Both the position numbers and the translations under genes were made by a program. The notes beneath the pieces are model-generated. The model worked only from the letters and a program-made list of their open reading frames with translations. It did not search any database and was not told the origin of the DNA. From the NCBI RefSeq assembly GCF_000172795.2, contig NZ_CP020947.1:3351001-3415000 (forward strand): a stretch of 64,000 nucleotides of DNA, written 5' to 3'. Of this stretch, positions 3,082 to 49,529 are shown piece after piece. The DNA comes from Rhizobium sp. CIAT894 (GTDB lineage: Bacteria > Pseudomonadota > Alphaproteobacteria > Rhizobiales > Rhizobiaceae). The stretch's first letter is position 1; each line of letters opens with the position of its first letter.

Positions 3082-3106
3082 GGAACATCGATTTGGCGTG
3101 GTCGTT
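3082..3106 (+). promoter_or_regulatory. Putative EcfG (general stress sigma) promoter
   Basis: GGAAC at 3082-3086, a 16-nt spacer and CGTT at 3103-3106 match the alphaproteobacterial EcfG/RpoE2 consensus exactly. The start codon of the DUF1236 gene lies 34 bp downstream of the site. The call is sequence-based. The sigma factor itself is encoded at 16450-17007. Confidence 0.75.
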
Positions 3107-15318: not shown

Positions 15319-15428
15319 TTCGGCAGTGATCTGGGTCAATGCCGGGCGATATCTCTTATGCAACGGACGGTGGTGACCCCAGTGCGAAATAGGCGGGCTT
15401 GCGCGCGCCCCAGCCAATGGAGACAGCC

Positions 15429-15773
15429 ATGAGCTATTCTATCTTCCAGTCCGGCCGCAGCCGCCGCAACGGCACCTTCCACAATCTGGAATCCGGCATC
15501 GAGGAGCAGATCGAGGCGCTGCGCGACGACCTCGCGGAACTGACGCGCCTCGTCGGCAAGAGCTCGCGTCACCAAAGCGAGAAAATCCGCAGCCAGGCCG
15601 GCGCCGGCTATGAGGAATTGCTCGGCCGCAGCGAGGATCTGCTGCGCGAATTGCAGCACGGCTATGAACGCGGCACGACCGAAATGCGCGAAACCGTGCG
15701 CAAACATCCGCTGGCAACCATCGGCGCCGCAGCCGTTTTCGGCCTCGCCATCGCCTTCCTCGCCCGCCGCTGA
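15429..15773 (+). CDS. DUF883/ElaB-like membrane-anchored stress protein
   Basis: This 114-residue protein has a long charged helical region (about residues 18-88, predicted coiled coil with EEQIEALRDDLAELTRLVG) followed by one C-terminal membrane helix with the Gly motif (KHPLATIGAAAVFGLAIAFL). This matches the DUF883/ElaB family, which in enterobacteria tethers to the inner membrane and can bind ribosomes. An exact EcfG promoter lies 111 bp upstream. The next gene, 9 bp downstream, encodes another small membrane protein. Function in rhizobia is unknown. Confidence 0.85.
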   Translation: MSYSIFQSGRSRRNGTFHNLESGIEEQIEALRDDLAELTRLVGKSSRHQSEKIRSQAGAGYEELLGRSEDLLRELQHGYERGTTEMRETVRKHPLATIGAAAVFGLAIAFLARR

Positions 15774-16449: not shown

Positions 16450-17007
16450 TCAAAATGCAAACGCCTTCGACGTCAGTGGCGCCGAAGTGGCGTCGGGGCC
16501 GAAATCGGCTTCGCCTGATATCTGCAGCAGTTCCTGCAGCCGCTGGCGGGCGCGGTTGACGCGGCTCTTGATGGTGCCGACGGCGCAGCCGCAGATTTCG
16601 GCCGCTTCCTCGTAGGAGAAACCCGAGGCGCCGACGAGGATGATCGCCTCGCGCTGGTCCGGGGGCAGCTGGTCGAGCGCCTTCTTGAAATCCTGCAGAT
16701 CGAGCGCCCCGTATTGCGAGGGATGCATTGCCATCGATTCCGTGAACAGTCCGTCGCTGTCCTGGACCTCACGGCCGCTCTTGCGCATCTGGCTGTAGAG
16801 TTCGTTGCGCAGGATGGTAAAGAGCCAGGCCTTCATATTGGTGCCCATCTCGAAATGATCCTGCTTGGCCCAGGCCTTCATGATGGTATCCTGGACAAGA
16901 TCGTCGGCGCGGTCATGCCGCCCGATCAGCGAAATGGCGAAAGCACGGAGACTTGGGAGGGCCGCCAGCAGTTCCCGCTTGAAGCTGGGTTGCGTTTTTT
17001 CTTCCAT
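16450..17007 (-). CDS. ecfG: General stress ECF sigma factor EcfG (RpoE2-type)
   Basis: This 185-residue ECF sigma factor has region 2 (about residues 15-80, with DDLVQDTIMKAWAKQDHF) and region 4 (about 110-165, with QLPPDQREAIILVGASGFSY and AVGTIKSRVNRARQRL). It directs RNA polymerase to GGAAC-N16/17-CGTT promoters, several of which are visible in this window. NepR holds it inactive until phosphorylated PhyR takes NepR away. It lies 10 bp downstream of nepR on the same strand and is divergent from phyR, the standard GSR arrangement. Confidence 0.92.
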   Translation of the reverse strand: MEEKTQPSFKRELLAALPSLRAFAISLIGRHDRADDLVQDTIMKAWAKQDHFEMGTNMKAWLFTILRNELYSQMRKSGREVQDSDGLFTESMAMHPSQYGALDLQDFKKALDQLPPDQREAIILVGASGFSYEEAAEICGCAVGTIKSRVNRARQRLQELLQISGEADFGPDATSAPLTSKAFAF

Positions 17008-17017
17008 GCCGATGATC

Positions 17018-17224
17018 CTATTCGGCCAGCTTGGCAGAAGCCATCATTTCGGCATGGTCAAGCTTTTCGAGAAGATCGAGAAAACGATCGGGAATCGCCT
17101 CTTCCTGCGCGGATGCATACAGCGACCGCAGCTTGACGCCGATCTGATTGTTCGGGTCCAGAATATCGCTTGCCCGCAGCTCCAGCTTACGCTGATCGGC
17201 TGCTTCTTTCTTGCGTGTCGTCAT
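17018..17224 (-). CDS. nepR: Anti-sigma factor NepR
   Basis: This small acidic/helical protein binds EcfG and is the target of PhyR in the partner-switch that controls the general stress response. The conserved core is IGVKLRSLYASAQEEAIPDR followed by FLDLLEKLDHAE. The start at 17224 (MTTRKKEAADQRK) gives 68 residues, typical for NepR. The frame stays open to an ATG at 17335, which would give 105 residues with a poorly conserved tail. The EcfG-like promoter at 17374-17398 allows either. It is cotranscribed with ecfG. Confidence 0.85.
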   Translation of the reverse strand: MTTRKKEAADQRKLELRASDILDPNNQIGVKLRSLYASAQEEAIPDRFLDLLEKLDHAEMMASAKLAE

Positions 17225-17373
17225 CAATTCGTCTTCTCGCCGGTTGTCTGTTGGGGCGTGCATAGGATCAATCGCGATTTCAACCATCGAAGCCGAGCCT
17301 TCGATTGTCGATGTCGCTGGCATTTCTTGTTTCATGGGTCAAAACGCTACGCCCTTTCTTCGTCGGCTGGAAT

Positions 17374-17477: not shown

Positions 17478-18272
17478 ATGACACTTTCCACTCGAATTGC
17501 GCCGCACCTTCCTTATCTGCGCCGCTATTCCCGCGCCCTTACCGGCACTCAGACTTCGGGCGACGCCTATGTTGCCGCCGTTCTTGAAGCCATCATCGCC
17601 GATCTCACGATTTTCCCGGATACGGCGAATGACCGGGTGGCACTCTACAAACTGTTTACGCAATTGTTTGGTTCCACCGCAGTCCAGATTCCAGAGCCGA
17701 CATCGCCCTATGCCTGGGAACAGCGCGCCACGCTCAACCTTTCGAAGGTTTCACCGGGCGCCCGTCAGGCCTTCCTGCTCGCCTCCGTCGAGAATTTCCG
17801 CGTCGCCGAGATCGGTGAAATCCTGGAACTCGACGAACAGGATGTGATGCGGCTGCTCGACATGGCCTCGCAGGAGATTTCCCGTCAGGTCGCAACCGAT
17901 ATCATGATCATCGAGGACGAACCGCTGATCGCCATGGATATCGAGCAAATGGTCGAAAGCCTCGGCCATCGCGTCACCGGTATTGCCCGCACGCATGCCG
18001 AGGCCGTGGCGCTCTACAACAAGACCAAGCCGAGCATGGTGCTGGCCGACATCCAGCTTGCCGACGGCAGTTCCGGCATCGACGCGGTCAACGACATCCT
18101 CAAGACATCGAGCGTGCCGGTGATCTTCATCACCGCTTTCCCGGAAAGGCTTCTGACCGGCGAGCGCCCCGAACCGACTTTCCTTGTCACCAAGCCCTTC
18201 AATCCAGACATGGTCAAGGCACTGATCAGCCAAGCGCTTTTCTTCAACGAATCGACCAGAGTGGCCGCCTGA
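17478..18272 (+). CDS. phyR: General stress response regulator PhyR
   Basis: This 264-residue two-part regulator has an N-terminal sigma-like domain (about residues 1-135, ECF-like but unable to bind promoters) that mimics EcfG and captures NepR. Its C-terminal receiver domain (about 140-258) has the acidic pocket IIEDEP and phosphoacceptor D191 in VLADIQLADGSSG. Phosphorylation opens the molecule and releases EcfG from NepR. It is divergent from nepR-ecfG, and a sensor kinase gene follows on the same strand. Length and domain order are canonical. Confidence 0.94.
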   Translation: MTLSTRIAPHLPYLRRYSRALTGTQTSGDAYVAAVLEAIIADLTIFPDTANDRVALYKLFTQLFGSTAVQIPEPTSPYAWEQRATLNLSKVSPGARQAFLLASVENFRVAEIGEILELDEQDVMRLLDMASQEISRQVATDIMIIEDEPLIAMDIEQMVESLGHRVTGIARTHAEAVALYNKTKPSMVLADIQLADGSSGIDAVNDILKTSSVPVIFITAFPERLLTGERPEPTFLVTKPFNPDMVKALISQALFFNESTRVAA

Positions 18273-18318: not shown

Positions 18319-18446
18319 CCGGTGCTACCGGGACGCTCCGGTGGCTTTAACGGTTTTTGCAGCGCTTTGTTCTAGAGTTGACAGGCGAGGCCTTGAGGGC
18401 GCTCGCTTTCAGCGAAGTCCAAGATGTCACAAGGAAAGGCGGCCGA

Positions 18447-19460
18447 GTGAATAGGACTGAACCATTGTCCGGCGTGCCTTTTACCTTCGAAGGCAAAGCC
18501 GCAATGATGGAACGCGCGCTCGGCAGCGCCGGGATTTCGATCCTCTGCCAGGACGCCCGGCTTTCGATCTTCTACGCCGAAAATCTGCCGCCGCATTTCG
18601 CGGCACTCTTTACGCCCGGCGGCAGCGACGCCGCTCTTTTCGGCGACGCTCATGGGCAATATCTGACAGCGCTGAAACACAAGGTATTGGAAACCGGCAT
18701 CCCCAACAATGCCGAGATCGAGATCGCCGTCGACGGTGAAACGCGCAGCTATGAATTGAAAATCCAGCGAACCGGTGAGCGCGGCGAATACGGACTTCTG
18801 TCCGTCATGGCTGAGGTCACCGAAAGCCGGCATCGTGAAAAGGTGCTGAAATCGCTGTTGCGCGAACTTTCGCACCGCTCGAAAAACCTTCTCGCCATCA
18901 TCCAGGGCATCGCCACGCAGACGGCGCGCAACACGCTTTCTCTCGACAGCTTCCTCGTCAAGTTTCGCGGGCGGTTGCAATCGCTTTCCAACTCGCAGGA
19001 TCTGATCACGGATTCGAGTTGGCGCGGCGCCTATCTCTTCGAACTTGCCGAAAAACAGTTCGCCCCCTACTGGCCGGAAACGTCAGGTTCCATGCCGATC
19101 TATGGCATCAATGCCCATCTGACCCCGAATGCCGCCGTGCATGTCGGGCTCGCCCTCCACGAACTCATCGTCAACTCCGCCTCCTATGGCGCGATCTCAG
19201 GCGGCGGCGCCTCGATCACGCTGAATTGCCGGGAAGCCATGATCGGCGAGAAGAAAGCGATCGAGGTCGCCTGGGCAGAGGTGCTGCAGGATCAATCGGA
19301 AATCCACGAATTCAGCGACAACAGCTTCGGCCGAACGGTGCTGGAGCGTGTCGTGCCCTCCTCCGTCAATGGCAAGGCGGAGTTGAGCCTCGTTCCCGGC
19401 CGCATCGAATATCGTCTGACCATTCCGGAAACCGAATTCGAAATATTCAAACGTGTCTGA
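18447..19460 (+). CDS. HWE-family sensor histidine kinase of the GSR locus
   Basis: This 337-residue cytoplasmic kinase has no membrane segment. A PAS-like sensory domain occupies about residues 18-125. The HWE phosphoacceptor motif is ELSHRSKNLLAIIQG with H143, and the ATPase domain carries LALHELIVNSASYGA and the W-x-E motif in VAWAEV. The GTG start at 18447 is preferred because AAGGAAAGG lies before it. An upstream in-frame start at 18357 would overlap the transcription start expected from the EcfG promoter only closely. Position beside phyR suggests that it phosphorylates PhyR, but the signal is unknown. Confidence 0.85.
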   Translation: MNRTEPLSGVPFTFEGKAAMMERALGSAGISILCQDARLSIFYAENLPPHFAALFTPGGSDAALFGDAHGQYLTALKHKVLETGIPNNAEIEIAVDGETRSYELKIQRTGERGEYGLLSVMAEVTESRHREKVLKSLLRELSHRSKNLLAIIQGIATQTARNTLSLDSFLVKFRGRLQSLSNSQDLITDSSWRGAYLFELAEKQFAPYWPETSGSMPIYGINAHLTPNAAVHVGLALHELIVNSASYGAISGGGASITLNCREAMIGEKKAIEVAWAEVLQDQSEIHEFSDNSFGRTVLERVVPSSVNGKAELSLVPGRIEYRLTIPETEFEIFKRV

Positions 19461-19477: not shown

Positions 19478-19604
19478 ACAGAAAAACAGCCGGTGCGAGG
19501 GCGGCGCACCGGCTGTCTTCACTCACCGGGAGGGGACCGTGAGTACGTCCGGATAGTGGGTTGGGGGCGCGCATGTTGGGTCGATGCGATCACCATCCGG
19601 ATAT
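19478..19604 (-). ncRNA. Putative EcfG-controlled small RNA (GsrN-like candidate)
   Basis: A minus-strand transcript of about 125 nt is predicted. An exact EcfG promoter lies at 19611-19635 and points into this gap. The expected start is near 19604, and a 12-bp terminator stem (19486-19516) followed by Us ends it. No conserved ORF fits in between. The RNA is C-rich, with runs CGACCCAAC and CGCCCCCAACCC, and a CUCAC/GUGAG hairpin exposes a CCCCUCCC loop that could pair with Shine-Dalgarno sequences. Caulobacter GsrN is a stress-sigma-dependent sRNA with C-rich loops. Homology is not shown, only similar logic. Confidence 0.6.
19486..19516 (-). terminator. Intrinsic terminator of the putative sRNA
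   Basis: A perfect 12-bp stem (ACAGCCGGTGCG / CGCACCGGCTGT) with a 7-nt loop is followed on the minus strand by a run of five Ts. On the plus strand the following bases are CTTCAC, so it terminates minus-strand RNA better than the HWE kinase mRNA. Confidence 0.75.
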
Positions 19605-19610
19605 CGCAAT

Positions 19611-19635
19611 AACGACGACATCGGACATTGGTTCC
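19611..19635 (-). promoter_or_regulatory. Putative EcfG promoter without a protein gene (sRNA promoter)
   Basis: Read on the minus strand: GGAAC (19635-19631), 16 nt, CGTT (19614-19611), an exact consensus. It directs transcription toward the HWE kinase 3' end. The 229 bp from here to preT hold AT-rich DNA, a RutR-like dyad and no other gene that I can see. Confidence 0.7.
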
Positions 19636-47816: not shown

Positions 47817-49529
47817 CTAAAACAGGAAATAGCGCTGCGCCATCGGCAGCACCGTCGCCGGTTCGCAGGTCAGCAATTCGCCGTTCGCCCTGACCTCGTA
47901 GGTCTCCGGATCGACCTCGATCTCCGGTGTCAGGTCGTTATGGATCATCGATGCCTTGGAGATGCCGCCGCGCGTATTCTTCACCGCCACCAGCTCCTTG
48001 GCAACGCCGAGCCGGCCCCTCAGGCCGGCATCGAGCGAGGCCTGGCTGACGAAAGTGACGGAGGAATTGGTGAGGCTCTTGCCATAGGAGGCGAACATCG
48101 GCCGGTAGTGCACCGGCTGCGGCGTCGGGATCGAGGCGTTCGGATCGCCCATCGGAGCCGCAGCAATCGAGCCGCCGAGCAGCACCATGTCGGGCTTCAC
48201 GCCGAAGAAGGCCGGGTTCCAGAGCACGAGGTCGGCGCGCTTGCCGATCTCGATCGAACCGATCTCATGGCTGAGACCGTGAGCAATCGCCGGATTGATC
48301 GTGTATTTGGCGATATAGCGGCGAACGCGGAAATTGTCGTTATCGCCCTTTTCCTCCTTCAGCCGGCCGCGCTGGCGCTTCATCTTGTCGGCCGTCTGCC
48401 AGGTGCGGATCGCCACCTCGCCGACGCGGCCCATGGCCTGGCTGTCGGACGAGATGATCGAAAAGGCGCCGATATCGTGCAGAATGTCTTCCGCCGCGAT
48501 CGTCTCCTTGCGGATACGGCTTTCGGCAAAGGCGATATCCTCGGGGATTGACGGCGACAGGTGATGGCAGACCATCAGCATGTCGAGATGCTCGGCGATG
48601 GTGTTGACCGTATAGGGCCGCGTCGGATTGGTCGACGATGGAATGACGTTCGGCTGGCCGCAGATCTTGATGATATCGGGCGCGTGCCCGCCGCCCGCCC
48701 CTTCGGTGTGGAAGGCATGGATGGTACGGCCCTTGATGGCGCCGATCGTATCTTCGACGAAGCCGCTTTCGTTCAGCGTATCGGTGTGGATCATCACCTG
48801 CACGTCATAGTCGTCGGCGACCGACAGGCAGCAGTCGATGGCGCCAGGCGTCGTGCCCCAGTCCTCGTGCAGCTTCAGCGAGGTGGCGCCGGCCAGCACC
48901 ATCTCGGTCAAAGCCCCCGGCAGTGATGCATTGCCCTTGCCGGCAAAAGCGAGGTTCATCGGGAAAGCGTCGGCCGCCTCGATCATGCGCGCGATGTGCC
49001 AGGGACCGGGCGTGCAGGTGGTGGCAAGCGTGCCGTGCGCCGGCCCCGTGCCGCCGCCGAGCATGCAGGTCATGCCTGACATCAACGCTTCCTCTATCTG
49101 CTGCGGCGCGATGAAGTGGATATGGCTGTCCATGCCGCCGGCGGTCACGATCTTGCCTTCGGCGGCGATCGCCTCCGTGCCCGGGCCGACGATGATGTTG
49201 ACGCCCGGCTGCATATCCGGATTGCCCGCCTTGCCGATCGCAGCGATGCGGCCGTTCTTCAGCCCGATATCGGCCTTGTAGATGCCCGAATGATCGACGA
49301 TCACCGCATTGGTGATGACGGTATCGACCGCGCCGTCTGCCCGTGTCACCTGGCTCTGGCCCATGCCGTCACGGATCACCTTGCCGCCGCCGAACTTCAC
49401 CTCCTCGCCATAGGTGGTGAAATCCCTTTCGATCTCGATGAAGAGCTCCGTATCGGCAAGGCGCACCTTGTCGCCGGTGGTCGGTCCGAACATGCCGGCA
49501 TAGGCGGCGCGAGAGATCTTGTAGGGCAT
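47817..49529 (-). CDS. ureC: Urease alpha subunit UreC
   Basis: This 570-residue catalytic subunit hydrolyses urea to ammonia and carbamate at a di-nickel centre. Ligands are in [11 protein letters not shown] (HxH), the carbamylated Lys of [12 protein letters not shown] (about residue 220), His in [24 protein letters not shown] and the flap [13 protein letters not shown] with the catalytic His. Length and order are canonical. A nonstandard pair of genes separates it from ureB: it follows a sialyltransferase-like gene by 3 bp. Confidence 0.97.

Follow-up and report, generated by a model that had tools for sequence, protein, structure and literature searches.

The stretch of 64,000 nucleotides from Rhizobium sp. 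CIAT894 analysed here (the window) almost certainly harbours a genuine small RNA, well conserved and described in print before, on the minus strand beside the genes of the general stress response (GSR). Judged by its place, promoter and conservation, the predicted RNA of about 123 nt (19482..19604, minus strand; start placed by the position of the promoter) is very probably the local copy of ReC64 of Rhizobium etli. The small RNA itself is already known; added here are a structure supported by covariation, a spread over 14 genera, the finding that no Rfam 15 family covers the RNA, and its fixed place in the genome. The best explanation, which we regard as probable, is that this copy of ReC64 serves the general stress response as a trans-encoded small RNA, the C-rich loops of which would pair with G-rich mRNA leaders.

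Promoter and genomic place of the RNA gene

The RNA gene is preceded on the minus strand by an EcfG-type promoter (19611..19635), with the -35 box GGAAC at 19635-19631, a spacer of 16 bp and the -10 box CGTT at 19614-19611, exactly the GGAAC-N16-CGTT arrangement that an earlier note on this DNA had pointed out. Between the kinase gene and the next gene this promoter is the sole match to the EcfG consensus pattern. In the entire window, GGAAC-N15..17-CGTT occurs six times against 1.33 occurrences expected, a number reached by none of 100 shuffles. The five other sites are found at 3082+, 15294+, 17408+, 18293+ and 22807-; site 17408+ precedes phyR, site 18293+ precedes the kinase gene and site 15294+ precedes an open reading frame (15399-15773) with a Pfam match (DUF883_C) below the cut-off.

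The neighbourhood consists of ecfG encoding the ECF sigma factor (16450..17007, minus strand; PF04542, PF08281), nepR encoding the anti-sigma factor (17018..17335, minus strand; PF18557), phyR (17478..18272, plus strand; PF22029, PF22233, PF00072) and an HWE histidine kinase gene in the position of tcrY (18357..19460, plus strand; PF07536). The RNA gene is located tail to tail with the kinase gene, in the gap between it and an open reading frame with dihydropyrimidine-dehydrogenase-type domains, presumably preT. Thus the RNA gene of the window is intergenic and downstream of phyR and the kinase gene, as is ReC64. Elsewhere in the window, the plus strand matches Rfam RF02514 (5_ureB_sRNA) at 49090-49375 with 114.6 bits (cut-off 40).

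Correspondence with ReC64

ReC64 of R. etli CFN42 shares with the window RNA the genus, the intergenic place downstream of phyR-tcrY and the EcfG promoter. In R. etli, ReC64 has been detected by Northern blot with an additional larger band (PMC2881028), and its start as determined by 5' RACE agrees with the EcfG1 promoter (PMC3892343). A ReC64 reporter was abolished in an ecfG1 mutant and retained 82% in an ecfG2 mutant, and was switched on in Escherichia coli by EcfG1 and EcfG2 (PMC3892343); equally, ReC64 is reported to go up upon salt shock (PMC4167512). The earlier note had proposed a stress-induced small RNA under EcfG control beside the GSR locus, which has been shown experimentally for this R. 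etli counterpart (PMC3892343). A conserved ReC64 has also been described for R. leguminosarum bv. viciae 3841 (PMC3892343), and a copy was found here in the record of that strain (NC_008380.1), while the copy in another genome of the genus (G009) is 94% identical to the window RNA.

The two RNAs differ in length, as 88 nt plus a larger band have been published for ReC64 (PMC3892343, PMC2881028), whereas about 123 nt are predicted for the window RNA from promoter to U-run. Counted from 19604, 88 nt end at 19517, the foot of the terminator. By analogy with GsrN of Caulobacter, which is processed to a 5' isoform (PMC5869019), the 88-nt form might arise by cleavage at this position.

Predicted structure and covariation

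The fold of the 127-nt RNA has a z-score of -5.27 and surpasses all of 200 dinucleotide shuffles. Its 5' domain (19548..19601) is composed of an outer stem (19601-19591 / 19558-19548) around an inner hairpin (19588-19584 / 19574-19570), the loop of which, loop 1, reads CGACCCAAC in the window; after the hairpin follows the C-rich strand CGCCCCCAACC (19569-19559) with CGCCCCC. Hairpin 2 (19521..19544) displays the C-rich loop UCCCCUC, so that the C-rich RNA with a loop-presenting hairpin noticed previously is indeed predicted. The intrinsic terminator (19481..19516) contains the perfect 12-bp stem (19516-19505 / 19497-19486) with the loop CCGCCCT, followed by the U-rich tail TTTTCTGTTT, again as had been described; all these elements are on the minus strand. 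That this terminator works in one direction only holds for the window, where the plus-strand tail is CTTCACTC, but does not extend to some relatives (e.g. L026), in which A/T runs on both sides of the terminator could allow it to work both ways. A simple terminator scan of the window listed seven sites but not the terminator of the RNA; the probable reason is that its stem has an A-rich 5' half with which the U-run can form base pairs.

Evolutionary evidence for the fold was derived from a covariance model (R2) built from 22 diverse sequences with the promoter excluded. Among 73 R2 matches (72 distinct sequences), 96.5% of the cells are paired in an alignment that was fitted to R2 and thereby favours the structure. 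Changes on both sides were observed in 20 of 26 pairs, as high a number being found in none of 500 shuffles; helices 1 and 2, which constitute the 5' domain, covary, and helix 4, the terminator, has 99.4% of its cells paired. Although poorly aligned by MAFFT, the outer stem is present in the single-sequence folds examined, including that of L021. The C-rich character of the loops is shared throughout the distinct sequences: CCC occurs in loop 1 in 63/72 and in loop 3 in 65/72, and CCCC in the loop-2 region (hairpin 2) in 72/72, the commonest loop 1 being CGCCCCCA (21/72).

Conservation within Rhizobium and across the Rhizobiaceae

The conservation search that had been suggested along with the original proposal found promoter, RNA and terminator in every one of the 37 same-genus genomes: BLAST detected one copy per genome in all of them (own genome included), and GGAAC-N16-NGTT and the terminator were in place in all 37. 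No BLAST match to the RNA was obtained in 24 genomes from other families of the order. In 42 parsed loci the promoter boxes are fixed except for AGTT replacing CGTT in four, while the spacer varies; outside these loci, one copy (L036) has TGTT as its -10 box. In 10 of the 42 loci the sequence is the same over the 130 nt that follow CGTT, whereas the promoter spacers of those same 10 loci average 69% pairwise identity, and by this comparison of sequences the conservation of the RNA is well beyond chance. When contigs were scanned for the exact hairpin-2 sequence, 110 named records were retrieved; all have an EcfG-type promoter, the spacer of which is 16 bp long in 109 and 17 bp in the remaining record (L177). 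Furthermore, the place of the gene is fixed: phyR or the kinase gene adjoins it in 85 of 86 loci (some genomes being counted twice), the exception being a short stretch (L204) in which neither is seen.

Across the family, BLAST of the RNA gave matches in 24/297 genomes at E<=0.01, many through short matches, and was superseded by covariance models. Model R1 matched 76/394 genomes at E<=0.01. Of 38 weaker R1 matches that were fetched, 23 carry an EcfG promoter, and the 15 that do not are read as noise; as two of the promoterless matches (E 1.8e-6 and 2.8e-6) score better than one promoter-bearing match (3.0e-6), R1 alone provides no clean separation. Model R2 found matches in 72/388 Rhizobiaceae genomes at E<=0.001 and, at E<=6.6e-10, in 58/388 genomes representing 14 of 109 genera, with the next match at 1.1e-5. 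Upstream of the RNA, GGAAC-N16/17-N[GA]TT is present in 50/50 inspected genomes out of those 58, some members of the model being among the 50.

Outside the Rhizobiaceae, R2 yielded no convincing match in 249 genomes of the order and 289 of the class, a set that may not include Caulobacteraceae and in which weak matches may be lost through the stricter filters applied to searches of more than 40 genomes. An EcfG promoter was found within 60 bases upstream of none of 19 order- and class-level matches. Two genera from another family of the order (L242 and L245, from 1501) have a C-rich, hairpin-rich element (E 4.3e-6 and 2.2e-5) that lacks an EcfG promoter and is possibly a different small RNA. 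A blastn search of plasmids gave no match. For the RNA, no Rfam 15 family scored above the gathering cut-off; the best model, RF02346 (ar35), reached 15.7 bits against 45 and covered the terminator only.

Relation to GsrN and other stress-regulated small RNAs

The analogy with GsrN drawn in the earlier note is already in print, as the R. etli RNA has been proposed as a putative GsrN homologue (PMC5869019). According to the same report, R. etli, Sinorhizobium meliloti and Brucella abortus have putative homologues close to their GSR loci, and a BLASTn search with the R. etli RNA as query revealed another in Agrobacterium (PMC5869019). Part of the spread beyond Rhizobium was thus known. The features used there for a GsrN-like RNA, namely an EcfG promoter, proximity to the GSR locus and a C-rich 5' loop (PMC5869019), are all present in the window RNA. 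GsrN of Caulobacter crescentus resembles the window RNA in its dependence on EcfG/sigma-T, its C-rich 5' loop and its intrinsic terminator; its gene, in contrast to the RNA gene of the window, is situated away from the GSR locus, and its BLASTn matches are reported as confined to Caulobacteraceae (PMC5869019). Also comparable are the RpoE2-dependent small RNAs of S. meliloti, where 23 small RNAs have been predicted behind promoters of this general-stress sigma factor (PMC3616915).

Candidate targets

The best-studied target of GsrN is katG, which it activates (PMC5869019). Among 15 Rhizobium katG leaders, only 2/15 paired with the 5' domain, and 2/15 with hairpin 2, better than 39 or more of 40 mononucleotide shuffles did, so that conserved katG pairing is unsupported. 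The katG leaders of some genomes of the R. etli group (L269, L271, L272, L274) contain a purine tract like AAGGGAGAGAG about 70 bases before katG, which is altered in L275 and L276; the tract may be near the 5' end of the mRNA, as is the GsrN site in Caulobacter katG.

A methyltransferase gene (L285) was discarded, its GGGAGGG being kept in only 2/10. Among permease genes (L330-L353), which we take to be AglF-like (aglF), GGGAGGG as the Shine-Dalgarno sequence is kept in 23/24 Rhizobium orthologues and in 0/2 from other families, and it is complementary to the loop core CCCUCCC. This gene was chosen post hoc among the 28 matches that the pattern has in one genome, the reversed control pattern having 6, and a strong Shine-Dalgarno sequence may be maintained regardless of any pairing with the RNA; the aglF-like gene is thus a lead rather than evidence. 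The motif TTGGGGGCG has 19 matches, one of them inside the RNA gene itself.

Mechanism and alternative explanations

In the mechanism that is probably at work, stress would cause PhyR to free EcfG from NepR, and EcfG would then transcribe the RNA from GGAAC-N16-CGTT, a step for which EcfG dependence and start have been published for ReC64 of R. etli. Transcription would stop at the 12-bp terminator, and the folded RNA, consistent with the covariation, would expose C-rich loops in the 5' domain, hairpin 2 and the terminator hairpin. By analogy with GsrN, these loops may bind target mRNAs at G-rich leaders or at the Shine-Dalgarno sequence and alter their translation. Repression through Shine-Dalgarno sequences, as envisaged in the original proposal, may be the outcome, but GsrN activates katG, and a conserved katG-leader pairing was not found in Rhizobium. 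A more far-reaching version combines a Rhizobiaceae-wide family outside Rfam 15, the role of GsrN exerted via three C-rich anti-Shine-Dalgarno loops, aglF among the repressed targets and possibly a cut at the terminator foot to an active form of 88 nt, as in the 5' isoform of GsrN; taken as a whole, this version is doubtful.

The adjacency to phyR or the kinase gene in 85 of the 86 loci, some genomes entering twice, would also suit a cis-acting antisense RNA on the 3' end of the phyR or kinase mRNA that exerts local feedback. Such an arrangement is improbable, as structure and loops rather than an overlap with one gene are conserved with compensatory changes, the neighbour differs between genera, being either the kinase gene or phyR, and in the window the kinase frame stops at 19460, short of the predicted 3' end of the RNA (19482). 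The conservation of three separate C-rich loops would also suit protein binding or a role as a sponge, exerted by the RNA through its repeated loops without mRNA pairing; this interpretation is improbable, since no partner is known and mRNA pairing has been described for GsrN, the loop of which is comparable (PMC5869019). A 25-codon ATG frame does exist within the window copy, and translation into a small protein might be considered on this ground. The frame lacks a Shine-Dalgarno sequence, its register and length vary among relatives and 3 of 32 distinct sequences have no start codon in the tested stretch, wherefore the small-protein reading, extremely unlikely, was rejected and the previous statement that the RNA encodes no recognisable protein stands.

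Implications

With the trans-acting small RNA favoured here, the general stress response of nodule bacteria would include a layer of control by RNA. The covariance model together with the list of conserved loops makes this RNA recognisable in genomes in which it has not been annotated and indicates the loop bases to mutate.
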